Of a DNA stretch of 64,000 nucleotides, positions 5,498 to 55,085 are shown piece by piece; positions within the stretch are counted from its first letter, which is position 1, and every line of letters begins with the position of its first letter. The stretch is from NCBI GenBank assembly GCA_021827995.1, contig JAKATK010000004.1, positions 1-64,000 on the forward strand, written 5' to 3'. Below the pieces are notes generated by a model. That model searched no databases. It worked only from the letters and a program-made list of their open reading frames with translations, and was not told the origin of the DNA. Origin of the DNA: Microcaldota archaeon. Its GTDB lineage: Archaea > Micrarchaeota > Micrarchaeia > Micrarchaeales > Micrarchaeaceae. The position numbers were made by a program, and so were the translations under genes.

Positions 5498-6934
5498 TCA
5501 GCCCTTAGCAACTGCGAGTGGTACCAACCTGGCTACTATGTTGGATATCTTGGCGCCAGCTACGCAGGCGACCACCTCGTCGACATCCTTGTAGGCCCAC
5601 TCCGCTTCCTCGCTGACAAGGCTGCGGTTGTGCACCCTCAGCTCTACGCCTTTGCTGGACATGGATCCGAGAGTCTTCGCTGCCGGTATTTCCCTTATCG
5701 CCTGGTGCCTTGACATGAGCCTGCCAGACCCGTGGCACGACGACCCGAAGGTCTCGGCCAGCGACTCAGACCTGCCGGACAACACGTAGCTGGCGGTCCC
5801 CATGCTCCCGGGTATGAGCACCGGCTGCCCGTGGTCCCTATATGCCCTTGGTATCTCGTCCCTGCCCGGACCGAAGGCCCTGGTGGCACCTTTCCTGTGC
5901 ACAAGAAGCTTGTGCCTCGCGCCATCGACCACGTGCTCCTCTTCCTTCACTATGTTGTGGGCTAGGTCGTACAGGAGTTCCATGCCGAGGGCGTCCGCGC
6001 TCTTACTGAATGTCTGCTCGAAAGCCTTGCGTATCGAGTCGGTCATCACCTGCCTGTTCGTGAAGGCGAAGTTGACCGCGCATCGCATTGCGGCCAGATA
6101 ATCGTCGGCTTCTCTCGACCCTATGGGCGCGTAGCTCAGCTCGGGATCCACGAGCTTTATGCCGTTCTTCCTCTGGTACTCAGACAGGCGCTCAAGGTAA
6201 TCGCTGCATATCTGGTGCCCGTAGCCGCGCGAACCGCTATGCAGCATCACGACGACCATGCCCTCGTGGAGGCCGAATGCCTTTGCCATTGACTGGTCCG
6301 CGACCTTCTCTACCTTCTGCACCTCTAGGAAGTGGTTGCCCGCGCCCAGGGTGCCCACCTCGTGCAGGCCGCGCTTCTTCGCGAAGTCGCTCACCATGTC
6401 AGGATCAGAGCCGCTGATGCAACCGCTCTCCTCCATGTGCTCAGCGTCCTTCGCAAAACCGTAGCCCTTGCTTATCGCGAACGGTGCGCCCTCTAATGCG
6501 ATTCTATCGAGATCCGATGCCCCCATGCCGGTGTTCATCCTGCTGCCCACACCGCTGGGCACGCTCTTGAACAGCGCATCGGCCAACTGCCTTATATTGG
6601 GCTTGAGGTCCTTCTCGTCAAGATTTGTTTTTATTATCCTGACGCCGCAGTTTATGTCAAAACCGCAGATGCCAGGCGATACTATGCCGCCGACCGCATC
6701 GAAGGCTATGACGCCGCCTACCGGAAAGCCGTAGCCCTCGTGGCCGTCAGGCATTACCAGCATGTCGCCGACTATGCCTGGCAGCGTTGTCGCATTCACG
6801 GCCTGCTGCAGCGTCCGGTCTCTCTCCATGTACTTGGCTATGTACTCGTTGGCGTATATCCGCACATTCGTGTTCATACCCCTGTTGGTATCCCTCCGCA
6901 CAATAAGCCTGCAGTCATCAATCCTCTCTGGCAT
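5498..6934 (-). CDS. rtcB: RtcB tRNA-splicing RNA ligase
   Basis: RtcB joins 2',3'-cyclic phosphate and 5'-OH RNA ends using GTP and Mn(II); in archaea it seals tRNA exons after intron removal. All catalytic elements are visible in 478 residues: D93 and C96 in GFDINCG, H201 in GAGNHFLEVQ, H232 in LHSGSRG, and the histidine that is guanylylated in this family, H401 in SCHGSGR. No intein is present. The N-terminus (PERIDDCRLIVRRDTNRGMN) lines up with other archaeal RtcB proteins, supporting the ATG at 6934. The window holds three intron-containing tRNA genes that would need this activity. Confidence 0.96.
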   Translation of the reverse strand: MPERIDDCRLIVRRDTNRGMNTNVRIYANEYIAKYMERDRTLQQAVNATTLPGIVGDMLVMPDGHEGYGFPVGGVIAFDAVGGIVSPGICGFDINCGVRIIKTNLDEKDLKPNIRQLADALFKSVPSGVGSRMNTGMGASDLDRIALEGAPFAISKGYGFAKDAEHMEESGCISGSDPDMVSDFAKKRGLHEVGTLGAGNHFLEVQKVEKVADQSMAKAFGLHEGMVVVMLHSGSRGYGHQICSDYLERLSEYQRKNGIKLVDPELSYAPIGSREADDYLAAMRCAVNFAFTNRQVMTDSIRKAFEQTFSKSADALGMELLYDLAHNIVKEEEHVVDGARHKLLVHRKGATRAFGPGRDEIPRAYRDHGQPVLIPGSMGTASYVLSGRSESLAETFGSSCHGSGRLMSRHQAIREIPAAKTLGSMSSKGVELRVHNRSLVSEEAEWAYKDVDEVVACVAGAKISNIVARLVPLAVAKG

Positions 6935-31807: not shown

Positions 31808-31904
31808 TGCAGGGAGGGAGATTTGTTCGCTCGTTTGAACTCCCGCAGGCCTAAGCCAACGGATCTTGAGTCCGTCGCGTTTGACCAGGCTCCGCCATCC
31901 CTGC
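31808..31904 (-). tRNA. tRNA-Leu (CAA) with 12-nt intron in the T-loop
   Basis: Acceptor GCAGGGA/TCCCTGC, long variable arm, anticodon stem ACGGA/TCCGT around loop CTCAAGA (anticodon CAA), T-stem GGGAG/CTCCC. The T-loop is 19 nt instead of 7; removing 12 nt (CGAGCGAACAAA) restores TTCAAAT. Mature length 85 nt suits tRNA-Leu. Discriminator A, CCA not encoded. A minus-strand TATA (CGCTTATATAGC) lies about 27 nt upstream, near 31930. Confidence 0.93.
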
Positions 31905-54985: not shown

Positions 54986-55085
54986 CGGGCCCGGCGGGAT
55001 TTACATCGCATTTTGCGATGCGATTTTGAACCCGCGACCGACGGATTAAAAGTCCGCCACTCTAGCCATCCTGAGTTACGGGCCC
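54986..55085 (-). tRNA. tRNA-Lys (UUU) with 25-nt intron in the T-loop
   Basis: Acceptor GGGCCCG/CGGGCCC, U8-A9, D-arm ACTC/GAGT, anticodon stem GCGGA/TCCGT with loop CTTTTAA, T-stem GCGGG/CCCGC, discriminator G. The T-loop is 32 nt; removing 25 nt leaves TTCAAAT. The insert contains the perfect stem ATCGCAT/ATGCGAT. The position equals that of the intron in tRNA-Leu (31808-31904). A minus-strand TATA (CGTTTTAATAGC) lies about 25 nt upstream. Confidence 0.94.

Follow-up and report, generated by a model that had tools for sequence, protein, structure and literature searches.

T-loop introns are rarer than introns at position 37/38 of tRNA genes, yet they have already been described in archaea. 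Non-canonical introns of the bulge-helix-bulge (BHB) type, known from Thermoproteales, Caldiarchaeum and other archaea, are short, lie outside 37/38, adopt a BHB fold and are associated with a splicing endonuclease (EndA) of broad specificity. Cases in the T-arm and T-loop are named in reviews (PMC6379350, PMC12397907, PMC3293823). ARMAN-1 and ARMAN-2 (Micrarchaeum) belong to the same phylum as the archaeon studied here and have the same type of endonuclease, the epsilon2 EndA. In ARMAN, tRNAs with several introns are known, as is the cleavage of relaxed BHB motifs (PMC4033280), and the ARMAN-2 enzyme cuts both BHB and BHL pre-tRNAs (PMC12397907). The permuted tRNAs of Thermofilum pendens and Cyanidioschyzon are likewise joined within the T-loop, by a BHB at 59/60 (PMC3218864), and in Thermoproteales, where introns have transposed between tRNA genes, different isotypes of the same genome carry similar introns (PMC4033280). 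There is therefore precedent for T-loop BHB introns, for junctions at 59/60 and for enzymes of the epsilon2 type. Compared with the non-canonical BHB introns, those described below show a lineage-wide preference for the T-loop and a fixed pairing to U54-A57, in tRNAs for Arg, Lys, Ala and Leu (apparently also Ser).

The window analysed here is a stretch of 64,000 nucleotides (bases 1-64000 of contig 10) from a Micrarchaeota metagenome-assembled genome (MAG) of 1.26 Mb that is 88% complete. Three tRNAs were found in it by Rfam, two of them with T-loop inserts, as the first-pass annotation had stated, while ARAGORN, which does not recognize T-loop introns, called no tRNA in the whole window. The features are collected in Table 1.

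Table 1. Features of the window discussed in the text
Feature	Position	Strand	Basis or remark
Gene for the RNA ligase RtcB, which would join the exons	5501..6805	minus	PF01139, E 1.2e-162
tRNA-Phe(GAA), the window's third tRNA, with an ordinary intron in the anticodon loop	22171..22255	minus	Rfam
tRNA-Leu(CAA) with 12-nt T-loop intron	31808..31904	minus	Rfam; ARAGORN after removal
Leu(CAA) 12-nt intron, best BHB register 58/59	31823..31834	minus	central helix GUUC:GAAC, slipped T stem GGGA:UCUC
tRNA-Lys(UUU) gene, interrupted	54986..55085	minus	ARAGORN call only after insert removal
Lys exon 2, U60 to discriminator G73	54986..54999	minus	
Lys 25-nt intron at 59/60	55000..55024	minus	placed by strict BHB register
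Lys central helix 3' strand UGUA, within intron	55002..55005	minus	
Lys inner hairpin UCGCAU-CGCAAA-AUGCGA	55006..55023	minus	
Lys exon 1, positions 1 to A59	55025..55085	minus	
Lys central helix 5' strand U54U55C56A57	55027..55030	minus	partner strand UGUA (55002-55005), with one U.U mismatch

The tRNA-Lys(UUU) gene consists of a 61-nt exon (GGGCCCG...GCGGGUUCAAA), the 25-nt insert and a 14-nt exon (UCCCGCCGGGCCCG); CCA is not encoded. The insert sits between A59 and U60, and its removal leaves the T-loop UUCAAAU. The Rfam tRNA model reaches 32.1 bits on the unit, with most of the T-arm left out of the match. ARAGORN makes no call on the unspliced sequence and reports tRNA-Lys(ttt) with an intact cloverleaf once the 25 nt are removed, which confirms the T-loop insert noticed at first pass. 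We consider it very probable that this T-loop insert, at 59/60, is a BHB tRNA intron of the archaeal kind and is removed by splicing. In contrast to the permuted tRNAs, the Lys exons stand in their normal order. They are contiguous within 100 nt, and a permuted or split tRNA was rejected. Group I and group II introns have a catalytic core of at least about 200 nt; the insert measures 25 nt, the window contains no such Rfam match, and this class was rejected too.

An Rfam search of the source genome returned 43 tRNA-like places, every one of which was read. T-loop introns are present in four tRNAs, namely Lys(UUU), Leu(CAA), Arg(UCG) (L041) and Arg(CCU) (L284), the last having been missed by the Rfam search and caught by a pattern search. 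Removal of the intron restores a canonical tRNA in all four: as with Lys, ARAGORN gives no call for the other three unspliced genes and calls Leu(caa), Arg(tcg) and Arg(cct) after splicing. The remaining introns are mostly at 37/38, with a few in the D-arm region as judged by eye. Other non-canonical inserts lie in the D-arm region of Ile(GAU) and Ser(GCU) and, in Val(UAC), close to the anticodon stem (L037, L028, L035). In tRNA-Arg(UCU) (L022) the anticodon loop has an intron and the T-loop has none, and its counterparts in the congeners G051-G054 show the reverse. The genome also has a tRNA with the anticodon UAU (Ile; L003), which is unusual for archaea. A tRNA-Ile(UAU) occurs in ARMAN-2 as well (PMC12397907).

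To follow the site among relatives, the family was searched with the pattern GGTTCRAAN{5,35}AAATCC, in which the central helix is left unfixed. Matches were found in 72 of 85 genomes and 25 of 27 genera; some are due to chance (e.g. L131, L133, L137), and the contexts read show true tRNAs in most genera sampled. A YGRA pattern gave 2.49 matches per genome in the family versus 0.46 for its reversed control. With a loose pattern applied to the whole phylum, the excess over the control shrinks outside the order and many matches are not tRNAs, leaving individual tRNA cases only. Introns of the same kind are present in the public complete genome of Micrarchaeum sp. A_DKE (NZ_CP060530.1), where Leu(CAA) lies near 635,720-635,830 and Arg(CCU) near 330,500-330,640. 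From the contexts, 94 non-Leu T-loop introns of 13-43 nt were collected, nearly all from the family of the source genome (28 Arg(UCG), 22 Ala(GGC), 19 Arg(CCU), 17 Arg(UCU), 7 Lys and 1 Phe), and three cases in Ser(GGA) were recognized by eye. Given four T-loop-intron tRNAs in the source genome and matches throughout the family, the T-loop site is a lineage-wide habit, one of two possibilities that the first-pass annotation had suggested when it proposed this survey of the genome and its close relatives.

The recurrence of the site bears on the possibility that the Lys gene has decayed or been interrupted by an element and is now a pseudogene. Elsewhere in the source genome, 3' copies of tRNAs do resemble scars of integrated elements. 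However, a Lys pattern search found the gene to be the sole Lys(UUU) match in the genome, for the lysine codon AAA, its cloverleaf is intact after removal of the insert, and the same site and geometry recur across many genera, so that decay is a most improbable explanation.

Probable remnants of integration were observed at several tRNA genes of the source genome. A 13.6 kb integrated element (L340:315-14000; G000:C13:23614-37298) lies between an intact tRNA-Ala(UGC) and its 3' copy, which comprises everything between the D-loop and the 3' end. Adjoining the tRNA is a tyrosine-integrase-like ORF (L340:366-1307), which is very similar to the integrase of the congener G053 described below; a putative VirB4/HerA-like ATPase ORF and a methyltransferase-like ORF were recognized by eye. 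Partial 3' copies of tRNA-Val(UAC) (L341; G000:C22:5491-6504) and tRNA-Glu(CUC) (L342; G000:C20:58321) were also seen. For the Glu copy no 5' acceptor strand matches, and the complete Glu gene lies on the opposite strand, at a distance of 21 kb.

The geometry of the intron was examined next to that of its relatives. Folding of the whole Lys unit is 4.3 SD better than that of shuffled sequences (z -4.3; 0 of 200 shuffles as good). The perfect 7-bp stem reported at first pass is present in two registers, CAUCGCA/UGCGAUG and AUCGCAU/AUGCGAU, and the form compatible with a BHB is UCGCAU/AUGCGA, of 6 bp. Energy folding of Lys alone favours a 6x6 internal loop; the strict BHB has -11.6 kcal/mol versus -17.9 for the minimum free energy (MFE) fold, and the corresponding values for Leu(CAA) are -4.6 and -6.0 kcal/mol. 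Because energy folding does not select the strict form, the register was chosen by comparative pairing. The Lys intron boundaries are ambiguous by a few nucleotides owing to AAA repeats.

In the 94 collected introns, the central helix with U54-A57 has all four pairs in 90 cases and three of four in the other 4, and its intron strand reads UGAA in 73 and UGGA in 17. When bulges of 0-6 nt per side were scanned over 78 introns, the register with two 3-nt bulges was a sharp optimum, with a mean pairing of 7.56 bp versus at most 5.22 bp in the 48 others. The inner helix has 3.6 consecutive pairs on average, compared with 1.18 (maximum 1.59 in 1000) when halves were swapped between introns. The patterns fixed GGTTC and AAATCC, and the frequency of the AAU bulge is therefore biased by ascertainment. 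In a distant Leu (L226), pair 57 co-varies (UUCG:CGGA). This tRNA-Leu(CAA) (L226:1430-1545), from another family in the class, carries an anticodon-region intron in addition to the T-loop intron with its compensated G57-C pair. By their predicted pairing, the collected T-loop introns form a textbook BHB, with two 3-nt bulges flanking a 4-bp helix. The BHB at the junctions, which the first-pass annotation had named as a check, is thus found among the relatives, and in a slightly relaxed form, shared by few of them, in Lys (three of four central pairs, UGUA with one U.U mismatch).

The Leu(CAA) intron departs slightly from this arrangement. Its exons are 97-100% identical across the 30 best family loci, every one of which has the insert, and a pattern spanning the whole T-arm, which could also match intronless genes, found 55 genomes in two families and none without it. 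In the loci read, the inserts are 11-20 nt long and end in GAAC, GGAC, GAGC or GAAU followed by two bases and A, and then U60. All 29 loci tested pair four of four bases with G53-C56, and their T stem slips by one place (49-52 with 60-63, four of four). The slipped stem yields 3-nt bulges and a splice at 58/59. The base preceding U60 is invariably A, and the earlier bases vary (AAA, ACA, AUA), as expected if the cut falls before that A. From this pairing, we infer that Leu(CAA) is spliced at 58/59, one nucleotide from the 59/60 site of Lys. The Lys and Leu inserts had initially been placed at the same position; they agree to within one nucleotide, but not exactly.

The same comparison weighs on whether the insert might simply be kept, giving a mature tRNA-Lys with an extended T-arm hairpin. 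The MFE fold is indeed a stable extension of the T stem. However, retention would abolish the 7-nt T-loop required for D-loop/T-loop contacts, orthologues are free of the insert, and the intron interiors vary freely in length and sequence around a conserved BHB core. Retention is accordingly very unlikely.

For the intron reading, both enzymes of the expected pathway are encoded in the source genome. The predicted EndA, on another contig (C1) of this incomplete MAG than the Lys gene, has 406 residues in a three-unit fusion and matches the ARMAN-2 epsilon2 enzyme 4fz2 over its full length (1e-170); the named relatives of the source genome are overwhelmingly Micrarchaeota MAGs. The catalytic residues Y236/H251/K282 and the loop residues Y160/K161 described for the ARMAN-2 enzyme (PMC12397907) are aligned and conserved, and by its three-unit fusion, catalytic Y/H/K and ARMAN loop Y-K the host enzyme is of the epsilon2 type. 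In the precursor, the T stem would remain paired while U54-A57 pair with the last bases of the intron (UGAA-type, UGUA in Lys), so that two 3-nt bulges on opposite strands would present the splice sites. The epsilon2 EndA would cut both bulges, and the RtcB encoded in the window would join the exons to restore the UUCAAAU T-loop. The invariant T-loop would supply half of the BHB in every tRNA, and one intron 3' end (UGAA-NN) would suit many isotypes. This may explain the reuse of the same site and the apparent copying within genomes.

The history of the Lys intron was traced with a Lys(UUU) pattern, which matched 133 of the 164 genomes of the order. Orthologous genes occur with and without the intron: it is present in 7 of the 133 (G000, G007, G010, G050, G055, G057 and G083) and absent from every matched genome of the sister family and from the congeners G051-G053. 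Within one genus, the syntenic Lys(UUU) locus is occupied in G007 and empty in G008, the flanks being 87% identical over 1051 nt and 80% over 734 nt. The simplest reading is that the intron was gained in several lines, and repeated loss may also account for the distribution. For the Lys gene of the window, no syntenic counterpart was found in congeners; therefore, gain of the intron and replacement by a different Lys gene are inseparable in the source genome.

The comparison of intron sequences, also proposed at first pass, showed that introns from different isotypes of the same genome have a higher similarity than expected. The mean is 0.484, versus 0.392 (maximum 0.452 of 500) when introns were re-dealt within isotypes and 0.41 (maximum 0.434 of 300) when letters were shuffled. 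Introns of different genomes in one genus reach up to 0.446; shared composition and ancestry thus account for part of the likeness. Two cross-isotype pairs (G004, G072) have identical interiors, only 6 and 8 nt long, the introns of three isotypes resemble one another in G032, and the Lys and Arg(UCG) introns of the source genome have a similarity of 0.67. This likeness suggests copying between tRNA genes. In comparison with the Thermoproteales transposition, a single fixed site is used, the similarity is modest and the evidence is weaker. The recent spread first proposed fits the scattered Lys intron (7 of 133 genomes, not in three congeners) and the cross-isotype likeness, but not the Leu(CAA) intron, present in all 55 matched genomes. 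A wider scheme can be put forward only tentatively and is more doubtful than not: the T-loop might act as a universal docking half-site for a short, portable intron with a UGAA-NN end, copied between the tRNA genes of a genome by gene conversion or retro-insertion, with Leu(CAA) as an old, fixed member and some gains favoured by the splitting of integrase attachment sites.

Such splitting may also be considered as the cause for which a spliced intron is kept, since it adds to splicing and does not conflict with it. A protective role of tRNA introns against integrases that target tRNA genes was proposed earlier, together with intron gain through integration (PMC3293823). In the congener G053, the intronless Lys(UUU) and a 3' copy of it flank an element of ~6 kb that carries a tyrosine integrase (PF00589). 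The copied part starts in the D-loop, includes the T-loop and continues to the 3' end, and a T-loop intron would split this target. Further Lys(UUU) 3' copies are found in G051 and G052. However, extra Lys(UUU) copies occur in ~8 of 126 intronless versus 0 of 7 intron-bearing genomes, a difference that is not significant with such small counts, and protection is not needed to account for the universal Leu intron. Protection is therefore an unlikely, though not negligible, reason for the persistence of the Lys intron. The extra 3' copies in G051-G053 (L329:2400-8740, L325, L327, L328) are preceded by the same CTACAAGAAAGCTAGGAG-like leader, and in G053 the integrase gene stands between the copies.

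No survey of the T-loop site across Micrarchaeota was found in the literature searched; the primary 2011 ARMAN-2 paper was outside that search, and overlap with it is possible. Within this scope, the additions would be the lineage-wide site, the set of isotypes, the tiny, apparently fixed Leu(CAA) intron with its slipped stem, and the occupied and empty Lys pair. One non-canonical intron site is used across a whole archaeal family, and the occupied and empty versions of one gene among related species, with introns alike or even identical between tRNAs of a genome, make tRNA intron gain directly traceable. Standard finders overlook tRNAs with T-loop introns (ARAGORN called none of three in the window, and Rfam missed Arg(CCU)); therefore, tRNAs that seem to be missing from such genomes may be interrupted ones.
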